A stretch of DNA of 38,197 nt from positions 1 to 38,197 of the IMG/VR virus record IMGVR_UViG_3300032087_000033; one strand, 5' to 3'. Positions 9,926 to 38,197 of this stretch are shown in pieces (positions within the stretch are counted from its first letter, which is position 1; each line of letters starts with the position of its first letter). This DNA is from a virus. A program made the translations under genes and the position numbers. The notes under the pieces were generated by a model. The model ran no database searches. It worked only from the letters and a program-made list of their open reading frames with translations, and was not told the DNA's origin.

Positions 9926-10149
9926 TGTATATATGCACTTATAAATTACCTGGAAGACAAAAAACTTTCCAAGGAGAAACTATCCCAGCTGCACATAAAA
10001 TGTTTATCAAAGATTATGCTGAGGCTGCGGGTCAAGTTAGGAAAGTTAAGATTGAGAAAACTACAGATCCAGGTTTTCTTATGGTAGTGAGCTACCCTAC
10101 TTACAGAGATGTATTTGCTAATCCTAAAACTTTAGGAGGTATTGTTTAA
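9925..10149 (+). CDS. 74-aa basic protein before the integrase
   Basis: A small protein (MYICTYKLPGRQKTFQGETI, AHKMFIKDYAEAAGQVRKVK) with a beta-alpha-beta look. It is coupled by TAATG to both neighbours. A gene of this size directly before an integrase could be an excisionase-type or accessory DNA-binding protein, but no HTH motif is clear, so this is only a positional suggestion. Confidence 0.6.
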   Translation: MYICTYKLPGRQKTFQGETIPAAHKMFIKDYAEAAGQVRKVKIEKTTDPGFLMVVSYPTYRDVFANPKTLGGIV

Positions 10150-11312
10150 TGAAAGTTTGGATTGAGAAAAAAGCTAGATCTGGAGGTAAGAAGTATATCG
10201 TTTTTGTTGAGGTAGATGGTAAGAAAAAAGTTAAAGCTACCTATGAGCTGAACCAAAAGAGACAAGCTAACATCTATGCTGATAGTTTGAGAAATATGGA
10301 GAGCCATATAGCTATGCCAGCTGAGATCACTTTTGATGCTGCTATAGCTGCCTACAAAGAAGATGTCTTAAAGGATGAATTAAAGACTTATGAGAGCAGA
10401 TTGCTAATTTGTGGAATAATAAACCACCATATCCACCCGCACATTAACAAAAAGCTCTTATCCGACTATACCCTTTATGATTTTAACGATAGCTATATAC
10501 CAGCTCTTATAAGCTCCTACGGGATGAGAGTTAAGAATTTGCCTGGTGGTAAGTCAGAAGTTGTTAGATCTAACAAAAAGCTAGGTAAGAAAGTTATCAA
10601 AGAGAGTGTGGCTCAGTTTAAATGTTTTGTTAAATATTGTTTAAGCAGAAAATGGATCTTAGATCCTACAATCTTAAACTTTAAATTTAATAAAAACTTT
10701 TTCCAGGATGAGAATACTAAAGCAAAATGGATGCCTAAGTATTCTGATATTGTTAAGATTGTTAATAGTGAAGAGAACCTATTTAACAGAGTTTTATTTC
10801 ATACTGCTGCAGAAACTGGCATGAGATTAAATGAGCTGCTAGGTTTAACATACTCAGACCTGGATCTTAAATCTAATCCAGCTCTTATCTATACTAATCA
10901 TAGCTTAGATAAATGGAATAACTTTAGAGAAAACTTCCTAAAAACTGCTAGCTCAAAAAGAAAAGTAGAGATCTCCAAGAGCTTATCTGTGTTGCTACAA
11001 AATCTTATGAAACAACAGCTGCCTAAAAAGCATGGTAGATACAGAATGCTATTTGGTATTACTAAGGCAGCAGCTGCTAAAAGAATTAAAAGAGCTGCTA
11101 AGAGAAATGGCATTACCTGGGAAAACGGGATGTCGCCTTTTAGAAAGTTCAGCTTTAGTTTCTTGAGAGATCAGCAAGCTCTAACTGATAAGCAGATCAT
11201 GCAAAGATTTGGCTGGTCTAATATGAACACTCCTAACAAATGGTACTACAGAGATCTTGATACCAATAAGGATCAAAGAATTGCTGCCATTGATAAGATG
11301 CTCCTTAATTAA
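10149..11312 (+). CDS. int: Tyrosine-family site-specific integrase
   Basis: The 387-aa enzyme recombines attP with a host attB. There is an N-terminal arm-binding region, a SAM-like core-binding domain (about residues 60-180) and the catalytic domain. Arg226 lies in TAAETGMRLNELLGL, the beta-hairpin Lys in SSKRKVEI, and the second Arg (332) in SPFRKFSFSF, where the usual H-x-x-R is S-x-x-R. FGWSN stands for the G-[HW] box, and Tyr366/367 in NKWYYRD is the nucleophile. The complete tRNA-Pro gene 380 bases downstream is the likely integration target. Start and stop overlap neighbours (TAATG). Confidence 0.9.
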   Translation: MKVWIEKKARSGGKKYIVFVEVDGKKKVKATYELNQKRQANIYADSLRNMESHIAMPAEITFDAAIAAYKEDVLKDELKTYESRLLICGIINHHIHPHINKKLLSDYTLYDFNDSYIPALISSYGMRVKNLPGGKSEVVRSNKKLGKKVIKESVAQFKCFVKYCLSRKWILDPTILNFKFNKNFFQDENTKAKWMPKYSDIVKIVNSEENLFNRVLFHTAAETGMRLNELLGLTYSDLDLKSNPALIYTNHSLDKWNNFRENFLKTASSKRKVEISKSLSVLLQNLMKQQLPKKHGRYRMLFGITKAAAAKRIKRAAKRNGITWENGMSPFRKFSFSFLRDQQALTDKQIMQRFGWSNMNTPNKWYYRDLDTNKDQRIAAIDKMLLN

Positions 11313-11521
11313 TGGCGCAACCCATGAGCTATCTCGAGTTTAAATTATCACTTGAGATGGCTTATGTATCTACCTTTGAAAGAGATCCATGGGTTCAAGA
11401 ACAATACAAAAAATATTTACAAAATTTTAATAACGCGCAAAAAAAAAGGGAGGGTTTAATTAACCCTCCGAAAAACCCTCCGATACTTAAAAAAGCTAAC
11501 AACCCCAACAGTTGTCGATAG
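11312..11521 (+). CDS. Hypothetical 69-aa protein after the integrase
   Basis: The N-terminal half is helical (MSYLEFKLSLEMAYVSTFER), the C-terminal half Pro/Asn/Lys-rich and probably disordered. It is coupled by TAATG to int. Its 3' half contains, on the opposite strand, a strong leftward terminator (11439-11469), which explains the odd Pro/Asn composition. The function is unknown. Confidence 0.6.
   Translation: MAQPMSYLEFKLSLEMAYVSTFERDPWVQEQYKKYLQNFNNAQKKREGLINPPKNPPILKKANNPNSCR
11439..11469 (-). terminator. Intrinsic terminator of the leftward late operon
   Basis: Read leftward, an 8-bp stem (GGAGGGTT with AACCCTCC, arms at 11469-11462 and 11456-11449) with a 5-base loop is followed by one C and nine T (11447-11439). 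This is a textbook intrinsic terminator for transcripts coming from the 11751-14400 small-gene cluster. It lies inside a rightward gene. Confidence 0.8.
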
Positions 11522-11537
11522 TATTCGAACCTATCGA
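11515..11537. other. 7+7 inverted repeat, candidate recombination or regulatory site
   Basis: TCGATAG (11515-11521) and CTATCGA (11531-11537) form a perfect inverted repeat with a 9-base spacer, overlapping the stop codon of the last rightward gene. The shape suits a tyrosine recombinase core or an accessory-protein site. The tRNA 3' end remains the more usual core site. Confidence 0.4.
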
Positions 11538-11593
11538 ACAAATCTCCAATCCGATTAGTGTTTATACCACTTCATCTTTAAGTTGAAGAGAAA

Positions 11594-11690
11594 AGATTGA
11601 CATAAATGCCTATAAAAAAGCTATATTCTGTAAGGCATATATCAGATTGATATATCGTTTATCCTCTGATAATCCTCCCATGTTTTAATA
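11594..11690. promoter_or_regulatory. AT-rich leader of the tRNA gene with inverted repeats
   Basis: A TTGACA near 11597 and a TATATT about 19 bases later could form a weak promoter for the tRNA. A perfect 8+8 inverted repeat (ATATATCA, 3-base gap, TGATATAT) and an ATCAGA/TCTGAT pair follow. Between integrase and tRNA, such repeats could be integrase or excisionase arm sites. Confidence 0.35.
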
Positions 11691-11695
11691 AAAGT

Positions 11696-11772
11696 CTGGG
11701 TGTAGCGAAGCCTGGTATCGCATCTGCTTTGGGAGCAGAGGATCGGAGGTTCAAATCCTCCCACCCAGACCA
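11696..11772 (+). tRNA. tRNA-Pro (UGG)
   Basis: The full cloverleaf can be folded: acceptor CTGGGTG/CACCCAG, D stem GCGA/TCGC, anticodon stem TCTGC/GCAGA with loop TTTGGGA (anticodon TGG), T stem GGAGG/CCTCC with TTCAAAT loop, discriminator A and an encoded CCA. C1-G72 is typical of bacterial tRNA-Pro. A T-run follows. Lying just beyond the integrase, it probably marks attP. Being complete, it may restore or supplement the host gene. Confidence 0.93.
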
Positions 11773-12790: not shown

Positions 12791-13158
12791 TATTTCTTTT
12801 TTCTGTTCATCAACTTGTCAGAAACTCTGGATCCGAAACTGGCTGTAAAGACAATAATTACGAGATACCATACGCTGTCTGGCAAATCATTTATAATAGA
12901 AACCCACTCTCTAAAGTTTTCTCTAGTTGATGGAAACCAACCCGTAGTGAGCATCCCGATCAACCACAGCATTAAGATCTCATCCTTGTATGATTGATCC
13001 TGGCTTTTAATTCTAGTTATATCTACATCTTTAGCTGCCTCTATTTCAGCAGCTCTTATTGTTTTAACTTTCTCGGCACGATGTTTAAGATACTCGCTGC
13101 CTTTATTCATAACCATTTTAGTTATGGGATTATTAAATATTTTTAATAGATGGATCAT
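12790..13158 (-). CDS. Holin of the gene-transfer-agent 3TM type
   Basis: The product (122 aa from the ATG at 13158, overlapping the lysozyme TGA) has a charged N-terminal helix, then hydrophobic segments ILMLWLIGMLTTGWFP and LPDSVWYLVIIVFTASFG, ending with basic residues. The SVWYLVIIVFTASFGSRVSD end matches the 3TM holin family found in alphaproteobacterial phages and GTAs. Directly following a lysozyme, it likely forms the inner-membrane lesion that releases it. Confidence 0.75.
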   Translation of the reverse strand: MIHLLKIFNNPITKMVMNKGSEYLKHRAEKVKTIRAAEIEAAKDVDITRIKSQDQSYKDEILMLWLIGMLTTGWFPSTRENFREWVSIINDLPDSVWYLVIIVFTASFGSRVSDKLMNRKKK

Positions 13159-13592
13159 GCAGCACAACTCCTCATTATTCCAGCTAGCTCTTCACATCTT
13201 TTAGTAGTTTGTTTATGCCAGGCACTATCAATCATTTCATCTGCAGCCTTATTGTAATCTGCAGCTCTAATACCCTCCCACATCTTTTTAAATTTAGATA
13301 CTCGAGGCTTACCAAGTTGAAAGCACATCTCGCAAATCAATCCTCTAATTGTTGTAAATTTTTCGTTTGGATCTATATCTGCAAGCAGCTCATCAGCTGA
13401 GCTTAAAGCAATTTCAAAATCTTTATCAAACACAGCGTCAAGCTCTTCTTTAGAATACTCCACACCCTCAACAAAGTTATCGGTATCCAGTACCAGATGA
13501 CCATAACCAATTGTAGCAAAACCAAGGCTATCGGAATAGATAGAACGCCTAAACCCCTCGTGTTGTTTAATTCTTTCTTTAATATCTTCCAT
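13155..13592 (-). CDS. Endolysin, T4-type lysozyme (GH24)
   Basis: A muramidase that cuts peptidoglycan for host lysis. The T4-lysozyme catalytic triad is in place: Glu12 in HEGFR, Asp21 and Thr27 in YSDSLGFATIGYGH (E-x8-D-x5-T). The 145-aa length fits. It has no signal peptide, so export depends on the holin next to it. The C-terminal FKKMWEGIRAADYNKAADEM helix is also typical. Confidence 0.92.
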   Translation of the reverse strand: MEDIKERIKQHEGFRRSIYSDSLGFATIGYGHLVLDTDNFVEGVEYSKEELDAVFDKDFEIALSSADELLADIDPNEKFTTIRGLICEMCFQLGKPRVSKFKKMWEGIRAADYNKAADEMIDSAWHKQTTKRCEELAGIMRSCAA

Positions 13593-14103: not shown

Positions 14104-14308
14104 TTACTTTCTCCCAGGTACAAGAAAACTTTACAAACACCTCATATTTTTTAGTGTCTTCTTTACCTACTTCTATTTGTTTTTTGGATGCCTCTTCATA
14201 ACCACTCATTAGACAATCGTACATAGTGTTATAGTAAGAGAGAGGCTGTGGATTTAAACACATTGAATGTATGTTGCTGCATATAATCATAGTCAACAAC
14301 ACTTTCAT
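14093..14308 (-). CDS. 71-aa exported Cys-containing protein
   Basis: It begins with a signal-like MKVLLTMIICSNIHSMCLNP, then YYNTMYDCLMSGYEEASKKQ and a final FVKFSCTWEKVNE. Cys spacing suggests disulphides in the periplasm. I recall similar small proteins in marine phages (YNTMYDCLxxGYEES type) with unknown function. It is coupled with the following coiled-coil gene. Confidence 0.6.
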   Translation of the reverse strand: MKVLLTMIICSNIHSMCLNPQPLSYYNTMYDCLMSGYEEASKKQIEVGKEDTKKYEVFVKFSCTWEKVNEI

Positions 14309-14346
14309 AATTATTCAGATCCTGGTGTAATTTTTTTTCTAGGCAT
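14309..14346 (-). CDS. Possible 11-codon micro-ORF
   Basis: MPRKKITPGSE follows the 23-aa peptide gene with a TAATG overlap and ends just before the next gene. It may be only a translational bridge or the residue of an eroded gene. There is no independent support. Confidence 0.2.
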
Positions 14347-14417
14347 TATGTGTAGAAACCTTTAGTAGCATCAAAACCACCTGATATTATATTTGCTAAA
14401 TCTCTTGCTTTTGTCAT
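14346..14417 (-). pseudogene. Remnant of a tail-fibre-type N-terminal peptide
   Basis: The 23 codons begin MTKARDLANIISGGFDATKG, the start common to many marine phage fibre or structural proteins and close to the start of the 519-aa adhesin here (MTKARDIADF). The rest of such a protein is missing. It overlaps the halogenase stop (ATGA). It is either an eroded duplicate of a fibre gene, perhaps left by exchange that brought in the halogenase, or a short working peptide. Confidence 0.5.
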
Positions 14418-15976
14418 TTATTTATTTCCTTTTTTGTATATATATTTTTGTTTAAATAATCGTAAAGTGTTGGACAATAATTAACCAACTTTTTAAATTC
14501 ATTTTTTCTTTGTTCAAAATGTTCTGAAATTCCAGACCATTGTTTTTTCCAGTAATCAGTATTAGCTTGTAAATTAGCATACTGTATTGTTTCAAATGTA
14601 GTAGGAAACCAATTCATTCCAGTTGCAATACAAGGAAACCCACCTTTTACATGCCAATAATTTTCTTCCATCTTATTAATGTAAGCTAGTTGAAAATCAG
14701 ACTTATCTTCAATAAAATTTTCTTCTATGTTATAATTTCTTTTTTGAATATCTTTCCAATATTTTGTATCTGTTCTATTTGATAATGCGTAGTGCATTGA
14801 TACAAATTGAGCAAAACCTTTGAACATTCTTCTACAAGCTAGGTTGTAATGTTGTTTTGCAAATTCATTAACTATTTCTTTTTTTAAAATAGGTATTAAA
14901 TTTTGTATAAAATGATGAATTGTTAATAGACCATTACTTTCTAAAGGCTCTATAAACCCTGCTGATAAACCAACAGCACATACATTTTTAACCCATAGTC
15001 TTTTATGTATGCCAATTCTCATTTTTAACTTTTTAAATTCTAAATCTTCTGTTCCTAAATGACTTTGGAATTGTTTAAGAGCATCATCATCAGAAATATA
15101 TTTATCTGAATAAACATAACCTGTACCCATTCTTGACCACAGAGGAATATTCCAAATCCAACCATTTTCTACAGCTTTACAATTTGTATAACCTACTAAT
15201 TCTTTTTGTTTATCTTTATAAGGCTGTTTTGTTGCCCAAGCTGAATTGTTAGGTAATATATCTTCGTAACTTTCAAATGGTTCTTTTAATGTTTTATCTA
15301 ATAGTAAAGATTTAAAACCAGTACAATCTATATATAAATCTCCTTTTACAGAATTTTTAGTATCTAAATCTAATTGCTTTATACTGCCATCTTCGTTTTT
15401 TTGAATATTAACAATATTTTCTACAAGTATTCTTCCACCTAATTGTCTGAATTTTTCTTTTAATAAAATTCCAAATTTAGTAGCATCAAAATGATAAGCT
15501 ACATCTTGTGTAAAATTCCAAGTAGGAAACACATTATTTTTTTCACAAACTTTATTTTGATTAATTAATTCCATTTGTGGAAACATACAATCTGCAAAAT
15601 CAGTATTAGGTGTTTCTGGATTTAAAAACTTTTTATAATACCAATAATTATAATTATGTATTTTTCCATCATAATAAGGTTCTCCAAAAGGATAATGAAA
15701 ACTACCACTATTTTTATCTAACCAATTTTCAAATCTAATACTTAATTTATAAGAAGCATCACACTTCTTCATAAAATCTTTATCTTGAATATTTAAAAAT
15801 TGTAAAAAATTATTAATAGAGCTTAATGTGCTTTCTCCAACACCTACAGTTGGAATATCTCTACCTTCTAAAATTCTTATATCTTTTTCTGGGAATGTTT
15901 TTTTTAAAACACAAGCTACTGATGCTCCTGCTGTACCACCACCAACAATCCAAATACTATTTATTTTTGAGACCAT
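14414..15976 (-). CDS. Flavin-dependent tryptophan halogenase (auxiliary metabolic gene)
   Basis: This family uses FADH2, oxygen and chloride or bromide to halogenate tryptophan or other aromatic substrates. Visible hallmarks are the GGGTAG FAD-binding loop (residues 12-17), the halogenase motif WIWNIP (273-278), Lys77 in CDASYKLSI and Glu346 in FIEPLESNGL, which match the PrnA catalytic Lys79 and Glu346. The 520-aa length is normal and the gene is intact. The ATG at 15976 is chosen over 15997 because it gives the smaller overlap with the upstream gene. It is transcribed with the fibre genes, so expression is probably late. The substrate is unknown. Confidence 0.88.
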   Translation of the reverse strand: MVSKINSIWIVGGGTAGASVACVLKKTFPEKDIRILEGRDIPTVGVGESTLSSINNFLQFLNIQDKDFMKKCDASYKLSIRFENWLDKNSGSFHYPFGEPYYDGKIHNYNYWYYKKFLNPETPNTDFADCMFPQMELINQNKVCEKNNVFPTWNFTQDVAYHFDATKFGILLKEKFRQLGGRILVENIVNIQKNEDGSIKQLDLDTKNSVKGDLYIDCTGFKSLLLDKTLKEPFESYEDILPNNSAWATKQPYKDKQKELVGYTNCKAVENGWIWNIPLWSRMGTGYVYSDKYISDDDALKQFQSHLGTEDLEFKKLKMRIGIHKRLWVKNVCAVGLSAGFIEPLESNGLLTIHHFIQNLIPILKKEIVNEFAKQHYNLACRRMFKGFAQFVSMHYALSNRTDTKYWKDIQKRNYNIEENFIEDKSDFQLAYINKMEENYWHVKGGFPCIATGMNWFPTTFETIQYANLQANTDYWKKQWSGISEHFEQRKNEFKKLVNYCPTLYDYLNKNIYTKKEINK

Positions 15977-16317
15977 GTTTGATTTTCTTCGTTCCAAACA
16001 TAGGGGTTATTAATATTGTTAGGTTCTGGATTTGCAGTTGGTGCTTCCCATTTTCCTGTTGCATTATTAAATGTCCAAGATGGATAAGGTTTTATACTAA
16101 CAAAAACATTGTTAACATCATCCCATGTTCCACCTACTTCTGCATTTCCAATACTATTTTCTGTTACTGGTGTCCATAAAGACCACCCAGTTAAATTTTC
16201 TAAAAATTCTACACCTATTGTATTATTAAAATTTCCATCTGCATCTTGGCAATCTGTTATTGCCACTTCAAGAATATTTAAAATTTTCCCATTTATTCCT
16301 AATTTACAATATCTCAT
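15961..16317 (-). CDS. 118-aa tail-fibre-associated protein
   Basis: The protein has VEFLENLTGWSLWTPVTENS, then GGTWDDVNNVFVSIKPYPSW followed by TFNNATGKWEAPTANPEP. The KPYPSW...W.xP pattern is frequent in proteins encoded near cyanophage tail fibres. It overlaps the halogenase start by 16 bases. A structural or fibre-chaperone role is likely, by context. Confidence 0.6.
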   Translation of the reverse strand: MRYCKLGINGKILNILEVAITDCQDADGNFNNTIGVEFLENLTGWSLWTPVTENSIGNAEVGGTWDDVNNVFVSIKPYPSWTFNNATGKWEAPTANPEPNNINNPYVWNEENQTWSQK

Positions 16318-16324
16318 AATTATC

Positions 16325-17884
16325 CTATTGAAACTTATACCTTACTATAACTACACCTTGTGATGAGTTACCACTTGTTGATTGTCCAGAAATTGTACTT
16401 CCTTGATTTCCACCACCACCAGAACCATAATTAGTTGCAACATTACATCCACCATCTGTAAGAGATTGTGCAGAACCACCTACATTACTTGAGCCACCTG
16501 CTCCACTTGCGTTGTTGTGTGCGTGACCACCACCACCTGCTGAGTAAATTCTTGATGAGCCATGAATATCATTTGATGAGCCATTTCCACCTGCTCCTGC
16601 AGACGAAGTTGAACCATTACCACCAGATGAACTTGCACCTCCTCCACCACCAGAACCATAATTAGGTTGACCAGTTTGACCATTTCCACCACTGTTACCT
16701 TGTGATGGATTTGTTGATGGGGTATTTCCAGATGCCCCAGAATATGAATTAGGATAAGATGAACCTCCACCTCCAGAACCCCCTGCAGTTCCATTGCTAT
16801 CAGTTCCACCTACTCCACCACCTGCTGATGAAATTCCAAAAGCAGAACTTGAACTACCATTAGATTGAAAACCTGCTTTTGCACCTACTTGTATTGAATA
16901 AGATTGTGCTGTAACTGTCATGTCGTAAGCAGAGTTATGTCTATAACCACCTGCTCCACCACCACCTCCATGAGTACCCCCTCCACCTGCACCTGCTCCT
17001 ACAACTAAATATTCTACTTTATTTCCGTAAGTGCTATTTTGTCCAAGTTCAGATACTACAAAATTTGATGATGAGGTAAAAGTATGTACTTTATAATCAC
17101 CATCAGTTGTTATTGTTCCACCTGTTGCAGTTAAATATTGTGGTAAAGTTATTGTAATTGAAAATTCTCTTGTTGTTACATTTAATCCATCTGTAGCTGA
17201 AACTGTAAAAGTTGATGTTCCTGTTGATGAAGGAGATGTTCCTGCAAAAGTTCCATTAGAATTTAAAGTCATACCAGAAGGTAAAGACCCTGCTGAAATT
17301 GTATGGGTAACTGTTTGACCATCTGCATCAGTTGCTACTGCTGAAGATAATCCTGAAAAATCTGTTACACCTTGTTGTAAGCTACCCAATGAACCTGCAC
17401 TTGTTGCGAATACTGGTGATGCTCCTGCATCTAAAGCATCTGCTAATATTCCAGACAAACCAGATGGATTTATAACTTTAATATCCCAATCTTCTTCTGC
17501 AACTGTTAAAGAGGGTGTTACAAAAGTTAATGTTGTTTCATTTGTAACACTAACAGATGTACCTGCTAATTCTGTTCCTGATGTACCAATTATTTTTACT
17601 TGTGTTGTTCCTGTTGTTGAAAACCCTGTTCCTGTAACAGTAATAGTAACTCCAGAAGCACTTGCTGTTGTAGGATTTATAGAAGTTACAGTTGGTGGAC
17701 TATCGATACTTTTAAATGCTGTTCCAGTATAATATTCTGCTAATCCAGTTGTAGTATTAAATCTTAATTGACCTGTAGTAGAGCCACGCTGAGCTGTAGT
17801 ACCAGACGCAACCTTAGTTCCCTCTGTACCAGTATCAGTTATGTTCTCAAATTTAAAGTCAGCAATGTCCCTAGCTTTAGTCAT
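16325..17884 (-). CDS. Putative receptor-binding adhesin with IPT/TIG, Ig-like and glycine-rich regions
   Basis: Order over 519 aa: MTKARDIADF anchor segment; a short LRFNTTTGLAEYYTGTAFKS repeat-type motif; an IPT/TIG-like domain (about 65-150, PPTVTSINPTTASASGVTIT); a putative Ig/cadherin-like domain (about 160-245); then a long Gly/Ser-rich part (about 290-510) ending VVIVRYKFQ. Gly-rich modules of this kind form trimeric tips of fibres. A strong AGGAGG site precedes the ATG. Likely role: recognition of the host surface. Confidence 0.75.
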   Translation of the reverse strand: MTKARDIADFKFENITDTGTEGTKVASGTTAQRGSTTGQLRFNTTTGLAEYYTGTAFKSIDSPPTVTSINPTTASASGVTITVTGTGFSTTGTTQVKIIGTSGTELAGTSVSVTNETTLTFVTPSLTVAEEDWDIKVINPSGLSGILADALDAGASPVFATSAGSLGSLQQGVTDFSGLSSAVATDADGQTVTHTISAGSLPSGMTLNSNGTFAGTSPSSTGTSTFTVSATDGLNVTTREFSITITLPQYLTATGGTITTDGDYKVHTFTSSSNFVVSELGQNSTYGNKVEYLVVGAGAGGGGTHGGGGGAGGYRHNSAYDMTVTAQSYSIQVGAKAGFQSNGSSSSAFGISSAGGGVGGTDSNGTAGGSGGGGSSYPNSYSGASGNTPSTNPSQGNSGGNGQTGQPNYGSGGGGGASSSGGNGSTSSAGAGGNGSSNDIHGSSRIYSAGGGGHAHNNASGAGGSSNVGGSAQSLTDGGCNVATNYGSGGGGNQGSTISGQSTSGNSSQGVVIVRYKFQ

Positions 17885-19048: not shown

Positions 19049-21073
19049 TTAAACTGTTGCAATAAGGTTTCCATCTGAGTTGATGCTAAAAGTAAAACCA
19101 GTAGCAGCAAAAATTACATCATCTGCTGCAGCATAATCGGCATTGCTAATATTATCAGCTCCTCCATTTGTTGTTATTATATTCAAATTATTATTAACTG
19201 TTTTAAATACATATACCTCAGCTGAGCTAGCATTTGCGTATGAGAGAGCTGTTCCAGCTCCATTAACAACTAACGCTTGACCAGCCGATCCAATCGATGC
19301 TGGAGTATCTGTTAAATCATTTATTGATATGTTGGCTAATTGAAAAGTACCATAAGCCACTATCATAAGAATATCATTAACAGCTGCTGGAGATGCTAGT
19401 ACAACGCTATTTCCCGATGTTGCAGTAAAATCTGCATTCGCTAGCTTAACCCCGTTCAAATATATATCACAGAACCCGCTATCATAAGCAAGAACGGCTG
19501 AATTATTATCTGCTCCAGAGAAAGTAGTTTGACCAGCTGTAGCTGTGTATTCAAATCTAGCTGCAGTTCCATTAACTGTAGAACCAGCTGCCGCCCATCC
19601 ACTAGATTTATAAACTTTTAATTCATTGGCTGTTGTATCAAAATATAGATCTCCAGTATTTAATGATGTTGTTGGAGCTGATGCTGATATTCTATAAACA
19701 TCTGCAAAGTTTTGCACCGATGATAAATTGCTAGATACATTAGACACCGCTGCATGAGCTGATGCTAAGTTTCCTAAATCAGATATTGCAGCAAGTGTAT
19801 TAATATTTCCGCTGTTTGAGTTGACAGCATTAATGTTAGCTGAATTTGAGTTGACCGCAGATACTGCAGCCTGGATCGAATTAACTCCAGAAATATCAGT
19901 ACGAATATTATTAAGATTTGTAATCTCGCTGCTTAAACCAGAGAGATTTGTAATTTCAGTATTTAAACCAGCAACTGTTGAAATATTGTTTGTTGGAGAT
20001 ATTTGAGCTGCAACTGTATTTACATTAGCTTGATCCGCTGTTGTAAGTTGGATTTGTCTCCAGGTAGTATTACCTAGATCATAAACTTTCATTACATTGT
20101 TAGTCGTATCAAAATATAATGCTCCGTCTGTAAGAGCTGCTCCATCATTATCTAAAGTTGGATCTGATGCTTTAGCTCCTAAAAATCTATCATCAAAATT
20201 ATCTAATGCTGCCTCCGCTGCAGCTTGAGCTGTTTGAGCTGCTGTTCTTGCAGTTTCGGCTGCTGTCTGAGCTGTTTCGGATGCTGTTTTCGCAGTTTCA
20301 GCATCGTTCTTATGAGATAAGGCTGTTGCCGCAGATGATGCTGCATTAGTCTCAGAAGTTGCTGCATTTGTTTCAGAAGTAGCCGCAGCTGCAGCTGATG
20401 AAGTAGCAGATGCTGCATCTACTAATAAATCCCATTTTGCGCTGTCAGCATTTGTAGTTAATGGCTGAGTACCAGATGAAGTGTGACCCGTATTAGCTAA
20501 AAAAATATTATTTGTACTTGTGTCTTTAACTATATCTCTAGCAGCATAAGAAGTTGCTGCAGACCAATTTCCCTTAAATGTCCCCAGCTCTTGTGAAACT
20601 ACTAATTCCCCGTTGCTATCAAATCCTAAAATTTTTCCAGCTCTTTCTGCAGATCCAACAATAAACTCAGTTGAGTTCATCGTATTAGTTCTTGATAATT
20701 TAATAGATCTATCTACTTCTTCTTGCAGCTCTTGCTGCTGTAAAGTTAATTTATCGAGAGCTGCCTCATGTGTTTCAGCTGGAAATGGATCATTTGATAT
20801 GTAATCTGTTTCTTGAGTTAAGTTAGTATTTCTTAATAAGACTACAGTTATTCCAGTTCCAGGAGCTGTCACAAAATTTACTTGTCCACCAGATGCTCCG
20901 TTATCTACAATAGAATAATGAGTTGTTAAAGTTTGTACTGTTTCAGTTCCGTCAGCAGCTCTTAGGATTACTTGCAGCTCTGCTGAGCTATGGATTGGAA
21001 AAGTAAAAGCAAAACTTGTTGTGCTATTATCTCCATTATAGGAATTTTTTACCGATAAACTCGATACTGTCAT
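19049..21073 (-). CDS. Main tail fibre with T7 gp17-type N-terminus
   Basis: The first 130 residues are the T7 gp17 anchor domain (VKNSYNGDNSTTSFAFTFPI, HYSIVDNGASGGQVNF, FPAETHEAALDKLTLQQQEL), which attaches the fibre to the tail. A long Ala/Thr/Ser/Glu coiled-coil repeat follows (about 215-290: SETNAATSETNAASS, TAAETARTAAQTAQ), then Asn/Ile repeats (INNLxxI-like) and two copies of a DGALYFDTTNN/TGDLYFDTTAN module. The 674-aa length is near gp17. A 96-base gap upstream may hold a promoter. Confidence 0.88.
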   Translation of the reverse strand: MTVSSLSVKNSYNGDNSTTSFAFTFPIHSSAELQVILRAADGTETVQTLTTHYSIVDNGASGGQVNFVTAPGTGITVVLLRNTNLTQETDYISNDPFPAETHEAALDKLTLQQQELQEEVDRSIKLSRTNTMNSTEFIVGSAERAGKILGFDSNGELVVSQELGTFKGNWSAATSYAARDIVKDTSTNNIFLANTGHTSSGTQPLTTNADSAKWDLLVDAASATSSAAAAATSETNAATSETNAASSAATALSHKNDAETAKTASETAQTAAETARTAAQTAQAAAEAALDNFDDRFLGAKASDPTLDNDGAALTDGALYFDTTNNVMKVYDLGNTTWRQIQLTTADQANVNTVAAQISPTNNISTVAGLNTEITNLSGLSSEITNLNNIRTDISGVNSIQAAVSAVNSNSANINAVNSNSGNINTLAAISDLGNLASAHAAVSNVSSNLSSVQNFADVYRISASAPTTSLNTGDLYFDTTANELKVYKSSGWAAAGSTVNGTAARFEYTATAGQTTFSGADNNSAVLAYDSGFCDIYLNGVKLANADFTATSGNSVVLASPAAVNDILMIVAYGTFQLANISINDLTDTPASIGSAGQALVVNGAGTALSYANASSAEVYVFKTVNNNLNIITTNGGADNISNADYAAADDVIFAATGFTFSINSDGNLIATV
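20200..20420 (-). repeat. Coding repeats of the fibre coiled coil
   Basis: Degenerate short repeats encode a run of Ala, Thr, Glu and Gln (units such as TAAETAR and SETNAA) in the fibre shaft. Such repeats can change length by slippage or recombination, altering fibre length. Confidence 0.55.
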
Positions 21074-21169: not shown

Positions 21170-23752
21170 TTATTGAGAAATTTCTGGTGCATCACTAGGC
21201 ATATTTTCGCCTGGATACCACCAATAATCTCTATTTTCTTTGTTCTGGTATCTTTTAATAATATTGTTATTTCTTTTATGAAATTTTGGATCAATTAAGT
21301 TCTGTAATGTATCTACTATGATCCTTTCCCATGCTGCTCTTAAATACCATATTGAGCTGCCTGGAGTGTATTTTTTAATAAAATTAGAAAACTCTCTACC
21401 CAAAGCTGGCTCTTTACCGCCAGGCATATATCTAAGTGTTTCATCAATTAGACCATATACATCTTTAGCAAAAGCTACTGGTAATCCAAGTAAAGCATCT
21501 GTGACATCAGTTCCGTAATTTTCTCCCTCTGCCTCTTGATAAACTAGATCTCCAAAAATACCTAATCCACCACCACCAATTAATCTAGCTAACCAATATT
21601 GAAACATTTGTGTTTTATCTAAGCTGCTAAAGTTAATTACATCTCTGCCTTTTAATACTTCTCTCATCTCATGTGAGTAAGCATTCATTAAAGTTGTACC
21701 TATTAAAAATGGTACTAGATAACCCGCTTTGCCTTTTAAACCAGTTTCTCTTAAACCTCTCATTATGTGAGTAAAACCAATTGCAATTGCAAAATTTTTA
21801 AACATCAATCCAGATGCTAATATTTCTCCAGCAAATGTTCCTGGTTTATTTTTACCCATAACAGCAACTCTACCTCTAATCGCAGCTGTAGGTATAGCAT
21901 GATCTGTTTCTGTAAAGATCATCTCCATAATTCTTGCGTGCAATCTATTAGCTGTTCCTACATCAATGTCTTTTCTTTTTAATAAATCTTCTGGTTTAAA
22001 AAACATTGCCTCTCCAGGCTTAATGTTTGGATCATCAATAGCAGCATCATATAATTTAGTTTGCCTGATAAGATCCCAATCTCCCTCTCTTATTCCATAA
22101 GTTTCTAAAGTTTGTGTAAGAGATCTTCCGTAAGATTGTAATTTTCCTTTTTGTGTTAAGGCATTAAGTTCTTTCCAAGATAAATTAAAATTATCTCCTA
22201 AGAAACCCATAAACTCCATACCAAAAGCCCAACGACCAGCTTGTGTTAAATGTGATAAACCAGATGCTCTAAGTGTTGCGTCTGATAACATCTTTGCAAG
22301 TATAGGTGCATCCGTATCTATAAAATATCTATTAGCAGCTGATGCAATAGTTGACCAATGCTCTCCAACTAACCCAGCTCTAATAGCTGCCTTAGACCAG
22401 GTTTTGTCTGTTTTTAAACCATCCTTAATTAATTTTAATGCTTTTCTATTTGCTTTATATGCGGGTAATCCAAGAAACTTAGATGTCATTCTTGAAAAGA
22501 AAAAGTCAGATTGTGCAAGTAGTGTTGCAGAACCAATAACAGCAGAAGTTAGAATATGTCTTAAACCAGCAAATCCCATAGCCCACCACTTATCTACTCC
22601 ACTATTTAATCTACCAGAATGAGCTAAGTATAAATTTTCTAATCCCTCTATTTTAGCTCTAATATTTTCTCTTTCTTTAATTGGCATATCTTTTGTATTA
22701 ACTCTAATAAGATCTACCAAGTATCTAAAACCAGCGTTAGGATTTGGTCCCAAGGCTCTCATCATAGCTGTATCTCTACTAATGCTTTCTAAATGCTGGT
22801 ATATTGTAGATATAACATCTTCATCTCCAAACTTAGATTGATAAGCCATATAATCATCTGCGCTTTTAAAAACTAAAAATCTATGATCTAATCTTTTGTT
22901 AGCTGTCATACCAGATGCGTTGCTCATAGTTCTTGATGTAGATCTTGTGCCTGGTACTAATTGACTAACTCCCTCAGTTCTAATTGCCTCATAAGTTCTA
23001 GGTAATTCTAAAACTAATTCCTCTCTAGTAAATGATCTACCCGTTTTATTATTAATCATTCTTTCAAGATCTAACTTAGGTAAAATATATTCAATCCATT
23101 CTTCTTGAGTTGCTTGACCAACTTTAACTGGATTATGTGGTTGTGGTAAATAATTACCTTTTATCTTAGCAACATTGCCACCAAATTGATTATGTCTAGT
23201 TCTTGCAAGTTCTATAGCCTCATTGATTGCTGCAGCAAATTCTTTTGCTAAAGGATTAGCAGTAGATCCAGGTTCTAATATTTCTTTAATAATTAATGGA
23301 GTAGTCATTTTTTGAAATTTATTTCTTCTGCCAAAATAACTTGTTCTATACTTCTCCATAAACTTAGCTAAAGGTGCGTGTACTAAACCTAGCTCAGTTC
23401 TTTTCATATTAGTTATTGATAAGATTTGATTGCCAGCATCTTGATCGAATATAGATCTTATTCCCTCAATAATATCTTTTTCGCCTTTTACATTTTTATA
23501 ATTTTCTGCAGTAAATTTATTCTGAGCTTGTACTCTAGCTTGATATAATGCGTTTCTTTTAGATCTTATTCTTTTTTCTTGCTGCACATCCCAAGTCTCT
23601 TTAGCTGCAGCTCTTTCAGCCTCAAAATCATTATAGCCTTGAGACTTAAATTTATCGTATTGTTTTTGAAATTCTATTCTGTGAGCATCTGCTGCATCTG
23701 ATGTCATCTCTCCATCTCTAAGCGCATTGCTAATACATTTTAAATAACTCAT
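21170..23752 (-). CDS. Large internal/ejection virion protein (860 aa)
   Basis: The protein begins with charged coiled coils (HRIEFQKQYDKFKSQGYNDF, QEKRIRSKRNALYQARVQAQ) and then has amphipathic and hydrophobic stretches (GFAGLRHILTSAVIGSATLL around 400; GYLVPFLIGTTLMNAY around 675; IGGGGLGIFGDLVYQ). Directly after the gp16-like gene, with a 4-base overlap, it looks like the last part of a T7-type core that inserts into the host envelope to conduct DNA. It resembles C-terminal parts of large phage polyvalent proteins. No enzymatic motif is recognised. Confidence 0.65.
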   Translation of the reverse strand: MSYLKCISNALRDGEMTSDAADAHRIEFQKQYDKFKSQGYNDFEAERAAAKETWDVQQEKRIRSKRNALYQARVQAQNKFTAENYKNVKGEKDIIEGIRSIFDQDAGNQILSITNMKRTELGLVHAPLAKFMEKYRTSYFGRRNKFQKMTTPLIIKEILEPGSTANPLAKEFAAAINEAIELARTRHNQFGGNVAKIKGNYLPQPHNPVKVGQATQEEWIEYILPKLDLERMINNKTGRSFTREELVLELPRTYEAIRTEGVSQLVPGTRSTSRTMSNASGMTANKRLDHRFLVFKSADDYMAYQSKFGDEDVISTIYQHLESISRDTAMMRALGPNPNAGFRYLVDLIRVNTKDMPIKERENIRAKIEGLENLYLAHSGRLNSGVDKWWAMGFAGLRHILTSAVIGSATLLAQSDFFFSRMTSKFLGLPAYKANRKALKLIKDGLKTDKTWSKAAIRAGLVGEHWSTIASAANRYFIDTDAPILAKMLSDATLRASGLSHLTQAGRWAFGMEFMGFLGDNFNLSWKELNALTQKGKLQSYGRSLTQTLETYGIREGDWDLIRQTKLYDAAIDDPNIKPGEAMFFKPEDLLKRKDIDVGTANRLHARIMEMIFTETDHAIPTAAIRGRVAVMGKNKPGTFAGEILASGLMFKNFAIAIGFTHIMRGLRETGLKGKAGYLVPFLIGTTLMNAYSHEMREVLKGRDVINFSSLDKTQMFQYWLARLIGGGGLGIFGDLVYQEAEGENYGTDVTDALLGLPVAFAKDVYGLIDETLRYMPGGKEPALGREFSNFIKKYTPGSSIWYLRAAWERIIVDTLQNLIDPKFHKRNNNIIKRYQNKENRDYWWYPGENMPSDAPEISQ

Positions 23753-26700
23753 TTACAATCCTTTAATCTTTCTAAGGCTTGAGCTGCCTTAGCATCATCT
23801 TCTAAAAATTCTCTCATTGGCTTAACTATATCTATTTCTTCTCCAGCTCCATCGATATAAGTACCCGTATGGATCTTAGCATCTATTAATTCTTCTGATC
23901 CTAATCCTTGTTTTTCCAAAGCTGAAAACCAAGCATCGTCTAATTCCATTCTTATATTTTCTTTTGCTTTTTCGAATGCAGCTAAACCTTTTGCTGTTTT
24001 AAATTCACTAGCTTTCATTTTGTATAGCTTGTGAGATCTTGTTAAAATTGAGGCAGTTGATTTTAATCTAATTTGCAGCTCAGCTGTCATGCCATCTTTA
24101 GTTAAAAGTTGAACATGAATACCTCTATATCCAGATCCTCTGCCATTTTCAGTTTTTAAGAAATCGTCAAATTCTATAGCTTTTACAGTATTCTTAATAT
24201 CTTGAGCTACAGCTCTAGCCTGGTCAATAGTATCTACATCTATTCTAGCTCTAAGCAAATCAGACACTTCTTCAATATTTCTAGTCTTGAGCTTTTCTGC
24301 CAAACTTGCGTCATCTTTTATACTTATATCTATATTAGCTTTATGTTTTTCTTTAAATTTGTTAAGAAAAGCTAAGTATCCATCATAGTTCTTTTTGGCT
24401 AAAGCCTTTAATTCGTTGATGTCATTAATACTATGATATATAATTCTTTTACTTATGGCACTTGTAGAACCAACAATATTATTATCAGATCCTCGTAATG
24501 ATGGAGGAGATGCTGTAGCGTCTGCAAAAACTGATGATGGCGGAGTAGCTTTTGTTCGTTGGGATCCAGCTGCTAAATCCTGGGTAATAGATAATGACTT
24601 AACTGCTGGAGATGTGCTTACACTTCCTCCACTACCTACATCATCTTTTATTTCTTTAGATATTCCCTCGCCTAATATTTCATCTGCAATTGATGGATCT
24701 TCTGAGGCTTGACCCACTTTCGGATCACTAAATAATTTATCTGTTTTTAAGTCTTCTTCAAATTTCGTAGGTATCGTTGGTGTCTCAATTTCAGTTTTGT
24801 TAGCTCCAAATGACTGGCTAACATCGCTCCCTCTAAAATCTCCTTTCGCAGCTGCGTCATCGATAGCTTGCTGGAAGAATTTTTCAGCATCCCCTCGTTT
24901 TCCATCTTTGAGGAGTTGCGCTGCTTTTGTGAGTTTGTCTGAGAGTTCTGCTCCAGCTCTGGTTGCGATCTGTTCAAATCTTTCTCCAACTTGCTCATAT
25001 ATTAATCTTTGCTCCTCATTGTTAAGTTTGTTTAATTTATTTCCCGCTTTTTGTAAAGTTGTATCATTTTCAACAATAGTCTTAAAAGCAGCACTTCTCT
25101 TAGTTATATTCTTTTTAGCCCAGTTTAATAACTGAGATCTTTCTACTAATAGAGTTTCTGCAAAAAAATCTGTACCAAATAATGTGTCTTGTTTAGTGAC
25201 AGTTTTAGGTAATGTATTTGTTAATCTTAATGTTTGCTCTAACTCTCCAACTGTAGAGAATTTTTTATCTTTTAGAATTTTAATTATATTTGCGTGTAAA
25301 GATTGATCTTCAATAATCTCTCCAACTTTAGCACCCAGGTTTTCAAGCTGTCTATTATTAGATACCATTCCCCAGGCATCATCACTTAACCTTGTTAAAC
25401 CAAATGTATTTCTAACTAAATTAGTTCTAGGTGGTAAAAATTTTTTTATTTGTTCAAAGTCAACACCATATCTGGATCTTAATATTTTAGCAGCATCGCT
25501 AGCTGTACCAGTATTATTCATAAGATTAACCATCAAACCTTTAATCATGGCAGCCTCTGGAGTAATACCATCAGCCTCTCTTATTGTGTAAGCTAGTAAA
25601 TCAATTTTTTTTCCTTGAGCTGATAATCTTTTAGCTAAGCCTAATCTTTGGTGTCCATCAACAATTGCTTTTGTTCCATTCCTATATTCAAAAACCATTA
25701 TTGTTCCAGCTGCAACATTATCCCATTCTTTAACCTCAGCTAGTTTGTTAGATACACCTCTTTTGTCTCCGTCAGTTTTATATTGAAAATTTACTGGATC
25801 AAATTCTATTTCTTCTGGTTTATAAATTTGATTATTAGCTGTTATCTCATTTATACTTTTTGATTTAATTGCTGCCTCAATAGGTTTTATTTCTTTTTTA
25901 ATATCATTTAAAACCATGCTTTGAGCTGCATTATGATTTTCTGTATCTAGCTGCGATGTAGCTTTTGTTTCTTCAAAAGGATTTTCTGGCTGTTTAACTT
26001 TAGACAGCTCTTCTGGATTTTCTATTTTAAGAGCTTTAGATATTTTATTTATTTCTTCATCGCTTGATTTGTTTAATTGTTTTCTTAATATGCCAGTAGC
26101 ATTAGGAACGCCTTTAATAATACCTTGTATTAATCCACCTAAAACAAATGAACCAGCTCCAACAGTTAATGTATTTAAAACTCCAAGATTTACTGTCTTG
26201 CCAAATAATTCTACTTCTGTTTTTAATCCTACTTCTTTTCTAAAACCTTGAGCTTTTATTTGAATAGGTATCTCAACAGCTGTACCTATTAAACCCTCTA
26301 CCCAGGCTACTCTCCATGCAGCAGCTAACGCTGTTGTTGGAACCTTATACATAGCTCCAATTGGTAAAGTACCAAGAACCAAAGGATCTGTGACTAACGC
26401 AGAAAAAGAACCAGCAAAGTTTCCAAAGGTTCCCATACCCGTAGATCTGTCTGCTATATCAGCTTGCTTATCATGTAGTCCCTGGATCCTAACTCCCATA
26501 GTATTAAAAAATTGATCTTGATTTTCATAACCCATGTTAGTTAATTCTTCTGCAATATCTGGATTAGCAGCTTTTAATTCATCTATTCTTTGCCAAAAAG
26601 TTTCTATATTTTCTGTTTCTGATGGTGGCGGTTCATCTAATACTCTAGGATCTTCTGGTCCCAAAGGCACATCTTCATTATTGTAAATTGGATTGCTAAA

Positions 26701-26907
26701 TTGTGAGTATCCTTTTTTATTAAGATGATCGACTAATAGACTATATTCTTTTTCTACAGAGTTTCTTTCACTATCAAATCTATCACTAGCAAACATTGCA
26801 TCATAACTAGCTCTAAAATTTTCTAAGTATCCAGTTCTATCTCCACTAGCCCAGGATGTTTCTCCTAAAGAGTTTGTGGCTTTTTTCTCATCAAAGACAA
26901 AAGACAT
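23749..26907 (-). CDS. Large ejection/polyvalent protein with ParB-like and RelA/SpoT-like domains
   Basis: At 1052 aa this stands in the T7 gp16 position. The N-terminal 300 residues have hydrophobic segments (FAGSFSALVTDPLVLGTLPI). A ParB/DdrB-like domain (about 360-500) carries GHQR (418-421). A C-terminal RelA/SpoT nucleotidyltransferase-like domain (about 830-975) keeps the ATP-site pattern Lys864, Ser868, Lys872, Asp883 in SDLLRARI, GYRGIH (926-931), Glu943-x-Gln945 and His959 in SHKLYK. If ejected with the DNA it could make (p)ppGpp-like alarmones or pyrophosphorylate a host target; this is inferred. The linker (about 740-830) is Ser/Thr-rich. Confidence 0.8.
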   Translation of the reverse strand: MSFVFDEKKATNSLGETSWASGDRTGYLENFRASYDAMFASDRFDSERNSVEKEYSLLVDHLNKKGYSQFSNPIYNNEDVPLGPEDPRVLDEPPPSETENIETFWQRIDELKAANPDIAEELTNMGYENQDQFFNTMGVRIQGLHDKQADIADRSTGMGTFGNFAGSFSALVTDPLVLGTLPIGAMYKVPTTALAAAWRVAWVEGLIGTAVEIPIQIKAQGFRKEVGLKTEVELFGKTVNLGVLNTLTVGAGSFVLGGLIQGIIKGVPNATGILRKQLNKSSDEEINKISKALKIENPEELSKVKQPENPFEETKATSQLDTENHNAAQSMVLNDIKKEIKPIEAAIKSKSINEITANNQIYKPEEIEFDPVNFQYKTDGDKRGVSNKLAEVKEWDNVAAGTIMVFEYRNGTKAIVDGHQRLGLAKRLSAQGKKIDLLAYTIREADGITPEAAMIKGLMVNLMNNTGTASDAAKILRSRYGVDFEQIKKFLPPRTNLVRNTFGLTRLSDDAWGMVSNNRQLENLGAKVGEIIEDQSLHANIIKILKDKKFSTVGELEQTLRLTNTLPKTVTKQDTLFGTDFFAETLLVERSQLLNWAKKNITKRSAAFKTIVENDTTLQKAGNKLNKLNNEEQRLIYEQVGERFEQIATRAGAELSDKLTKAAQLLKDGKRGDAEKFFQQAIDDAAAKGDFRGSDVSQSFGANKTEIETPTIPTKFEEDLKTDKLFSDPKVGQASEDPSIADEILGEGISKEIKDDVGSGGSVSTSPAVKSLSITQDLAAGSQRTKATPPSSVFADATASPPSLRGSDNNIVGSTSAISKRIIYHSINDINELKALAKKNYDGYLAFLNKFKEKHKANIDISIKDDASLAEKLKTRNIEEVSDLLRARIDVDTIDQARAVAQDIKNTVKAIEFDDFLKTENGRGSGYRGIHVQLLTKDGMTAELQIRLKSTASILTRSHKLYKMKASEFKTAKGLAAFEKAKENIRMELDDAWFSALEKQGLGSEELIDAKIHTGTYIDGAGEEIDIVKPMREFLEDDAKAAQALERLKDCK

Positions 26908-29020: not shown

Positions 29021-29467
29021 CTAAGCGTTTTGCATTTTAAATCCAAGATCTAATAAACTTGCTCCAGCTGCATAGTAAGATGCTTTCTTAGCAACTTTAC
29101 CTCTCCATCTAGCAAGATCTGCATCAGCTCTTTTTTGAATTGCATCGTTATATGCTTGATCTCTAGCATTCTCTGCATTGTATTGAAGATTATCTCTATC
29201 TCTTTGTAATTCTAATTCTTGATCGTATAATGCCTCAACTACAGTTCCAGACATTGTGGCTCCACTAGATAAATAAGCTACAGTAGTTTTGCCTTGGATC
29301 TGTTCAACTGTTTTATCAAACTTAGGTAAAGAATATTCATTATGAACAGACATAATCTGTTCAGCTTTCTGCTCATCTAATTTTGCATTACGCTCTAATA
29401 TCTTAGCATTATAATTAGCTGCTGCTTGTTGTGACTTACCCGCAAATATATCTCCAAAAAAACTCAT
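29021..29467 (-). CDS. Internal virion protein, gp14-like
   Basis: The 148 aa show MSFFGDIFAGKSQQAAANYN, then AKLDEQKAEQIMSVHN, SSGATMSGTVVEALYDQELE and coiled-coil ALYDQELELQRDRDNLQYNA, ending with a hydrophobic helix (SYYAAGASLLDLGFKM). This pattern is typical of T7-like internal virion protein A, which forms the outer-membrane part of the ejection channel. The ATG overlaps the preceding stop. Confidence 0.78.
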   Translation of the reverse strand: MSFFGDIFAGKSQQAAANYNAKILERNAKLDEQKAEQIMSVHNEYSLPKFDKTVEQIQGKTTVAYLSSGATMSGTVVEALYDQELELQRDRDNLQYNAENARDQAYNDAIQKRADADLARWRGKVAKKASYYAAGASLLDLGFKMQNA

Positions 29468-29916
29468 CTTTCTATCCTCGCAAATCTAATAAAGTCTTCT
29501 CCATCTGGTCCATAGTTTTTCATAAGACCCTCTGGATTTAGACCCAGCCATTTAGCAAATCGGATTGCCATTTCACAATCTGCTTTGACACTTGTTTGTA
29601 GTCTTTTTATTTTATTATTTTTTATAAGCATCTCAGTTCTTTTTTTTATATGCTTTGCGCAAAAAATTGGATACTTATAAATATCTTTTGTAGCCAAGAC
29701 CCACCCCTCGGCAACGCCATCCCAAAGTGTAAATACACCTCCAGCCGCTATGGGTTTGTTATTAACTAAACCCGTGAACGACATACCAACTTCTTTTAAG
29801 TAGTAAGCATATTTTTTATGTTCTGGTTTCAGCTCTAATAATTTGCTGTTTAAACCAATCTCTAATATTTGTTCAGCGTGTTTATTTTCAAAAGGTACAA
29901 TTACAACTTTAGACAC
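29464..29916 (-). CDS. gp13-like assembly protein with GNAT fold
   Basis: The sequence VVIVPFENKHAEQILEIGLN, MSFTGLVNNKPIAAGGVFTL and MAIRFAKWLGLNPEGLMKNY with a final GEDFIRFARI follows the acetyltransferase-like family (DUF2833) that includes T7 gp13. In T7, gp13 helps assemble the internal core. It lies between tail tubular B and gp14-like, as in T7. Enzymatic acetylation is not implied. Confidence 0.78.
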   Translation of the reverse strand: MSKVVIVPFENKHAEQILEIGLNSKLLELKPEHKKYAYYLKEVGMSFTGLVNNKPIAAGGVFTLWDGVAEGWVLATKDIYKYPIFCAKHIKKRTEMLIKNNKIKRLQTSVKADCEMAIRFAKWLGLNPEGLMKNYGPDGEDFIRFARIER

Positions 29917-37449: not shown

Positions 37450-38197
37450 TTAGTCTCCGTGTATTGAATATTCGTTTAATGAATAAGTTTGTTTTGGTTT
37501 ATTTTTTTCTGGTAAATCATTTAAAGATATTGCCATGTACCTCACGCTATCTACTGCATGACTAGACCAATCCTTAACTGGTTTATTCGAAAACATTTTA
37601 ATTTTTTCGTTATACTTTCGATGGTATTGTCTAAGCGCATCTATTAATGGTTTTGTGTTTTCTATATCGAACCAACATCTAGGTAAAACCATCTTTGTAC
37701 TGTGGATCCCATCCTCTAAAGATAACTTAGGTAAAATTCTAAACCTAACTCCCAACTGATAAGCTACATCTAATCTGGTCTTACCCGTTGAAAATTCTGT
37801 GACTTCTATATCGTGTGGAGCGTAATGCTCTCCGTAAATATAATCTTTATCTTTTATAACCTGGACATAGTGAGGAAGACCCTCTCTCCTATTCTCATAG
37901 TAATCAATTACTAAAATAGAGTTTCCTAACTTTTGAAAAAAAACAATTGCTGTACTATCATCCACTCCTAGATCCCAGGCGGTATGAACCTCCAGGCTAG
38001 GATCATAAGCTATTCTAGTTAATTGTTTCTTCTCTTCTAAATTTTTAATTATATCTCCAAATATAGATCCCTCGATATTTGCAATCCAATCGCATTCAAA
38101 TTCTTGCCGATACTTCGTATCTCCCATTTGAGCTTTGGCTGCATCTAACTCTTCCTGGTCTATAATATTAGTTTCACTTGCCTTAGCTGTATAAGTC
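37450..38197 (-). CDS. terL: Terminase large subunit, C-terminal nuclease part (partial at window end)
   Basis: This is the continuation of the gene at 1-738. The frame is open to base 38197; the last 208 bases repeat the window start. The RNase-H-like nuclease is visible: Asp in HTAWDLGVDDSTAIVFF, a central PHDIEVTEFSTGKTRLD and a late Asp in SSHAVDSVRYMAI. It cuts DNA when the head is full. It lies two bases from the 75-aa gene. This copy reads MGDTKY where the left copy reads MGETKY. Confidence 0.93.
   Translation of the reverse strand, partial: TYTAKASETNIIDQEELDAAKAQMGDTKYRQEFECDWIANIEGSIFGDIIKNLEEKKQLTRIAYDPSLEVHTAWDLGVDDSTAIVFFQKLGNSILVIDYYENRREGLPHYVQVIKDKDYIYGEHYAPHDIEVTEFSTGKTRLDVAYQLGVRFRILPKLSLEDGIHSTKMVLPRCWFDIENTKPLIDALRQYHRKYNEKIKMFSNKPVKDWSSHAVDSVRYMAISLNDLPEKNKPKQTYSLNEYSIHGD
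37990..38197. repeat. Terminal direct repeat, right copy
   Basis: Repeats bases 1-208 with substitutions at 38029 and 38119. Collapsing it gives a circle of about 37,989 bp. Confidence 0.9.

Follow-up and report, generated by a model that had tools for sequence, protein, structure and literature searches.

The window analysed here is the whole of an IMG/VR virus record of 38,197 bases with 34% GC. Its positions 1-208 and 37990-38197 are alike except for two mismatches, so that the record, listed as linear, probably represents a nearly complete genome. By its sequence, we assign it to a small marine podovirus of bacteria with an HTVC010P-type (pelagiphage) backbone: homologues of the portal, capsid, tail tube, and fibre genes of these pelagiphages occur in the window in the same order. 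The portal is 56% identical to that of phage Greip, the capsid 68%, the tail proteins 59-60%, and the fibre 62%; Greip also carries phrog_7759 (38% identical to that of the window), without a halogenase. The features that bear on the halogenase are the following.

13155-13592, minus strand: phage lysozyme (PF00959, 2e-11) of the downstream lysis region, a flank outside the block
14221-17728 (ends approximate), minus strand: swapped-in block of outer fibre, phrog_7759, and halogenase, as read from the identity profile and the flanks
14414-15976, minus strand: VirX1-type flavin-dependent halogenase, 520 aa (PF04820, phrog_2928, VirX1 6qgm, fold)
14939-14941, minus strand: codon of Glu346 (the PLES glutamate), followed by Ser347 and the halide loop Asn348-Gly349
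15143-15160, minus strand: WIWNIP motif, residues 273-278 (sequence, alignment)
15746-15748, minus strand: codon of Lys77, the predicted haloamine-forming lysine (K in 23 of 23 aligned sequences and in all 39 tree rows)
15926-15943, minus strand: FAD-binding GxGxxG motif (GGGTAG in the sequence; glycines invariant in the alignment)
15961-16317, minus strand: phrog_7759, a small Trp-rich fibre-module protein, 118 aa (phrog_7759, E 3.4e-16)
16325-17884, minus strand: fibre gene with a conserved N-terminal part of about 52 residues, a swapped outer part, and a Gly-rich C-terminal domain
19049-21073, minus strand: tail fibre protein, a backbone gene (tail fibre PHROGs; 62% to the Greip fibre)

An earlier, sequence-only reading had placed an intact tryptophan halogenase at 14414-15976, between fibre and lysis genes. 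These coordinates were right; the strand, which it left unstated, is minus, and the plus strand across the interval is full of stops. The placement also stands: phrog_7759 and the Gly-rich fibre (PF21722 Gly_rich_2, 8e-12) lie upstream, and small genes and then the lysozyme downstream, all on the same strand. The claim that the halogenase is embedded in the late operon is likewise right.

The window phage may be temperate, since it has an integrase and an HTH regulator. At positions 10149-11772, the integrase precedes a complete tRNA-Pro(TGG) whose CCA is encoded, a candidate attachment site or cargo tRNA. A 79-nt stretch of this tRNA is 100% identical in contig NHDJ01000020.1 (L032) of the MAG Verrucomicrobia TMED56, whose integrase is 94% identical at the protein level and which has 84% DNA identity to the window over the integrase region. 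Because it is a relative of the window phage, this contig is either a prophage or a mis-binned phage contig. We rejected the tRNA-Pro as a host marker, as a 24-nt pattern matched only a Magnetococcales tRNA and the same contig, itself a phage relative. A 1052-aa protein among the internal virion proteins (23749-26907, minus strand) has, in residues 864-964, a domain like that of RelA/SpoT (PF04607, E 5.8e-8, passing the curated cut-off), so that the virion may deliver a (p)ppGpp synthetase-like domain. Further upstream, a DGHQRL segment looks ParB-like by eye. A small protein of the virion cluster (29464-29916, minus strand) has a Greip counterpart annotated as an acetyltransferase; it is possibly another modifying enzyme of the late operon.

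The halogenase and its possible substrates

The halogenase gene runs from an ATG at 15976, from which residues are numbered, to a stop ending at 14414; an alternative TTG start would extend it to 15997. Its product matches Pfam family PF04820 with E 1e-108 and 364.6 bits (cut-off 21) over positions 2-449 of the 458 of the profile, PHROG 2928 ("tryptophan halogenase") with E 1.1e-141, and, as its best solved relative in PDB, VirX1 (6qgm) with E 2e-102. The motifs of flavin-dependent halogenases (GxGxxG, WxWxIP, the catalytic Lys, and Glu-Ser) are all present and invariant among relatives, with K77, E346, S347, G349, and the WxWxIP residues unvarying in 23 aligned sequences. Lys77, Glu346, and WIWNIP (W273-I-W-N-I-P278) had been named from the sequence, and we confirm them at these positions. 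The accompanying statement that all key features are kept is right for the motifs, but had left unremarked a difference in the halide loop, which reads PLESNG in the window and PLESTG in VirX1 and PyrH, the Gly being kept. Residue 348 is Asn in 22 of the 23 aligned sequences and Thr in VirX1, PyrH, and others. In published halogenase structures, the halide is thought to be bound via backbone amides at this loop. Hence, Asn348 need not abolish activity; it could shift the choice of halide.

Pairwise dN/dS of the halogenase ranges from 0.06 to 0.31 (NG86; dS is near saturation for some pairs), and the identical gene of one relative (L001) adds nothing to this analysis. An AF2 model built on 22 relatives (mean pLDDT 85, pTM 0.86) has a TM of 0.89 to VirX1 and about 0.8 to tryptophan halogenases. 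Loss of the FAD or halide site in a model had been named as a refutation; the model reproduces the overall fold with good confidence, but its pLDDT is under 50 at residues 339-341 and 344-347 of the catalytic/halide loop, too low to decide on the halide site by itself. The dN/dS values and the invariant residues support an intact gene under purifying selection. Together with the fold, they make it well supported that the enzyme is active and that selection maintains this activity, as had been proposed. In a phylogeny with phage halogenases, which had been suggested as a check, the gene falls in an IMG/VR subclade of a VirX1-type phage clade (31 rows, support 97/96); some cyanophage and other rows of this tree sit on long branches, where their placement is unsure. 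The enzyme is a further example of an already known type, and its genomic context is the new part.

Comparison with known enzymes gives some indications on the substrate. VirX1 (cyanophage Syn10, PDB 6QGM) is 35-37% identical to the window halogenase over the whole length, is likewise phage-borne, and has the same Lys, WxWxIP, and PLES motifs; its carrier is a cyanobacterial myovirus, whereas the window is a podovirus. It prefers iodide and has a large open active site that accepts bulky substrates (PMC8407142). Among isolates, Synechococcus phage Sf-CH11 has the best-matching halogenase (45% identical, with 97% of the query aligned), also with Asn in the halide loop. This halogenase lies behind a 10-kb structural gene, among 2OG oxygenases, in a T4-like backbone, and phrog_7759 has no match in the Sf-CH11 genome. 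PrnA, RebH, PyrH, and Thal have the same fold (Z 36-44), FAD motif, and lysine/glutamate chemistry motifs at 26-31% identity, but the window halogenase lacks their Trp4 motif: neither the group A form YYxxF(E/D)... nor the group B form (Y/H)YHG(L/F)(P/E)PYS was seen on inspection of the aligned region, which reads NYW-HVKGGFPC. In groups A and B, this motif holds the free tryptophan substrate, and its absence has been tied to non-tryptophan substrates (PMC8269204). Its absence here makes free tryptophan an unlikely substrate. MibH, a lanthipeptide tryptophan 5-halogenase (PDB 5UAO), has the fold in common (Z 34.7, E 4.7e-46, 25% identity); it belongs to a lanthipeptide pathway and not to a phage, yet is a precedent for this fold acting on a peptide. 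Given the missing Trp4 motif, the open site of VirX1, and the fold of MibH, a protein or peptide substrate is possible.

The substrate could also be a small molecule. In vitro, many small aromatics are substrates of VirX1 (PMC8407142), characterised members of the family mostly act on small molecules, and an antibiotic role has been suggested, as speculation, for the prnA genes of cyanophages (PMC2984593). The window enzyme would then make a halogenated indole or other aromatic metabolite in late infection or lysogeny, acting on competitors or on host signalling. We consider this unlikely. Pfam scans found no biosynthetic partner gene in the window, the late-operon site beside fibre and lysis genes would leave little time for a metabolite to act, and the halogenase has moved with fibre genes and not with metabolic genes.

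The fibre cassette and its enzyme slot

The relationships of the window change inside the fibre gene. Fibre residues 1-52 are 71-92% identical in amino acids to those of three backbone relatives (L292, L293, and L305). Past residue 52, identity is about 30-45% to backbone relatives and 60-80% per block to two halogenase-bearing loci (L003 and L137). Downstream of the halogenase, DNA identity of 79-87% resumes to L292, L294, and L293. The flank relatives compared have neither the phrog_7759 nor the halogenase of the block. We fetched 80 IMG/VR backbone relatives with the tail fibre protein of 19049-21073 as query; in the nearest ones, the fibre is followed by small genes and lysozyme with nothing between, and among the 40 loci with enough downstream sequence the halogenase was found in none and phrog_7759 in 2. 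Because fibre identity switches past residue 52 and backbone identity resumes downstream, we conclude that the outer fibre, phrog_7759, and the halogenase, about 3.5 kb in all, entered as one piece. The last two genes overlap by 16 bp, with the ATG of the halogenase lying within the 3' end of phrog_7759, both in the window and in two relatives (L002 and L003).

The same genes recur in otherwise different genomes. In G002, the halogenase (76%), phrog_7759 (57%), and the fibre C terminus (65%) match the window, with no portal, capsid, or tail protein in common. G005 has only the halogenase (78%) and the fibre (47%) in common with the window, and L006 only the halogenase, fibre, and phrog_7759; across these three, cassette proteins are 47-78% identical. 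Fibre relatives that match up to the C terminus have the halogenase in 4 of 4 cases, vs 0 of 76 others. We rejected a strict coupling of fibre tip and halogenase, since a search with the C-terminal half gave a halogenase in only 5 of 77 loci (the top three positive), which confines a strong link to close relatives. Most of the compared loci are contig fragments.

Such co-transfer is linkage and no proof of function. The halogenase could be a passive hitch-hiker (a moron), settled in a post-fibre site that tolerates insertions and giving a benefit unrelated to the fibre. In favour of this, fibre regions are known to be variable islands (PMC3909814), genes that stand side by side will move together, and the closest backbone relatives do without a halogenase. 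Nevertheless, we find this quite unlikely, as the slot is filled non-randomly, time and again by 2OG oxygenases that occur on the downstream side of phrog_7759 alone. Among the 80 best-scoring phrog_7759 loci, a non-random set found via one degenerate pattern, 62 have a 2OG-Fe(II) oxygenase nearby (called by an HMM seeded with Pfam-confirmed members), always downstream, mostly at gene offsets +1 to +4, and never upstream. After dereplication below 70% identity, 19 of 33 loci retain an oxygenase, with 0 among 121 upstream and 40 among 196 downstream genes (Fisher 9e-10, with incomplete independence of the genes). We found none among the 707 genes of 66 fibre loci lacking phrog_7759, which come from different phages, so that phage type is confounded in this comparison. 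Pfam and PHROG annotations of neighbour genes are used here as tallies and not as per-protein calls.

Loci with a halogenase keep the same gene order, often with Pfam-confirmed oxygenases adjoining it. For example, one operon (L137/L138) reads fibre, phrog_7759, a 168-aa gene, 2OG oxygenase, halogenase, and 2OG oxygenase, with overlapping ends. Since oxygenases usually fill this position and other halogenase phages have both enzymes there, the window halogenase occupies a modifying-enzyme slot inside a mobile receptor-binding cassette. 2OG oxygenases are absent from the window itself. Only 1 of the 80 best-scoring phrog_7759 loci has a halogenase, hence the cassette does not need one. In four loci (L025, L034, L047, and L048), two different halogenase genes stand side by side, and 10 of the 80 best-scoring phrog_7759 loci have more than one copy of phrog_7759.

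We also considered the phrog_7759 protein as a dedicated Trp substrate. Its W81, W90, W108, and W115 are nearly invariant, but they are equally conserved where no halogenase is near, as in 79 of the 80 loci, so they do not mark a substrate; the protein stays one candidate among those of the cassette. Its predicted structure (pLDDT 96) matches only uncharacterised phage proteins, with no PDB match below E 4, and may represent a fold not yet solved.

Cultured phages have the same arrangement, namely S-CREM1, Sf-CH11, Sf-FP1, and S-SRM01. The VirX1-type halogenases of S-CREM1, Sf-FP1, S-SZBM1, and Sf-CH11 have structural or fibre genes on one side and rows of oxygenases on the other; that of S-SRM01 is flanked by a tail fibre region and by the adhesin tip (gp37-gp38). 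In cyanomyoviruses, 2OG oxygenases are enriched within 5 kb of VirX1-type halogenases relative to random positions (combined p about 0.01), but not near psbA (p 0.49) or near other halogenases (p 0.85); this modest effect over nine related genomes also argues against passive carriage. S-B64 is an exception, with a related halogenase away from fibres, and other, more distant phage halogenases sit in metabolic islands.

Possible roles in host attachment

The acquisition of the halogenase in one block with the host-binding part of the fibre suggests that it modifies the phage's own attachment machinery. The roles first proposed for the gene were a halogenated metabolite or the modification of a virion or host aromatic residue. 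The genomic context favours a virion residue, and a free-tryptophan product is not favoured, as the Trp4 motif is missing. In the likeliest of the readings considered, to which we give slightly less than even credence, the enzyme would halogenate aromatic residues of the fibre or adhesin that the phage itself encodes. By analogy with the family, hypohalous acid would form from oxygen, halide, and reduced FAD supplied by a host reductase, and Lys77, assisted by Glu346, would relay it to an electron-rich aromatic group. No flavin reductase was found among the window proteins scanned with Pfam. From the context, the target ring could be a Trp, Tyr, or His side chain of the fibre or adhesin proteins, and its halogenation could tune adhesion or stability. 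The cassette would thus be ordered as outer fibre, phrog_7759 protein, and modifying enzymes, either 2OG-Fe(II) oxygenases or a halogenase. Several observations count against fibre modification: neighbouring genes can co-transfer without a functional link, halogenases are rare in phrog_7759 loci, the S-B64 gene is away from fibres, other phage halogenases lie in metabolic islands, and the window lacks an oxygenase.

The site among receptor-binding genes would also fit an enzyme directed at the receptor, which halogenates an aromatic of the host envelope (a receptor protein or a glycan-linked group) to block superinfection or aid release. This could take place in lysogens, given the signs that the phage may be temperate. 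We regard it as very improbable: by inspection, the halogenase has no signal peptide or membrane segment, it requires cytoplasmic reduced FAD, and its gene is on the late, not the lysogenic, strand.

That phage halogenases are known from cyanophages and that their use is not settled, as stated earlier for this gene, agrees with published work (PMC2984593, PMC8407142); the window phage itself is no cyanophage. Published accounts count phage halogenases among the auxiliary metabolic genes (PMC10452541, PMC9146016) or tentatively take them for antibiotic makers (PMC2984593). The 2OG-Fe(II) oxygenases of marine phages have so far been explained by 2-oxoglutarate control (PMC3037559), with DNA repair as another explanation, as reported in PMC9146016, and Fe(II)-dependent oxygenases have been tabulated beside host-recognition genes in variable islands of marine phages, without a mechanism (PMC3909814). 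We found no paper proposing fibre modification by phage halogenases, in a searched literature that omits most subscription journals.

Unlike these metabolic and antibiotic listings, the cassette evidence points to modification of receptor-binding proteins. Marine phages have numerous 2OG-Fe(II) oxygenases, to which the same logic would assign a role. The slot after phrog_7759 might then serve modifiers of receptor-binding proteins in general, usually by hydroxylation and here by halogenation, and VirX1-type halogenases would be modifiers of virion adhesin proteins and not metabolic genes; this wider proposal is tentative, and we hold it as rather doubtful. If it is true, phages diversify their attachment by post-translational chemistry carried in the fibre-tip cassette.
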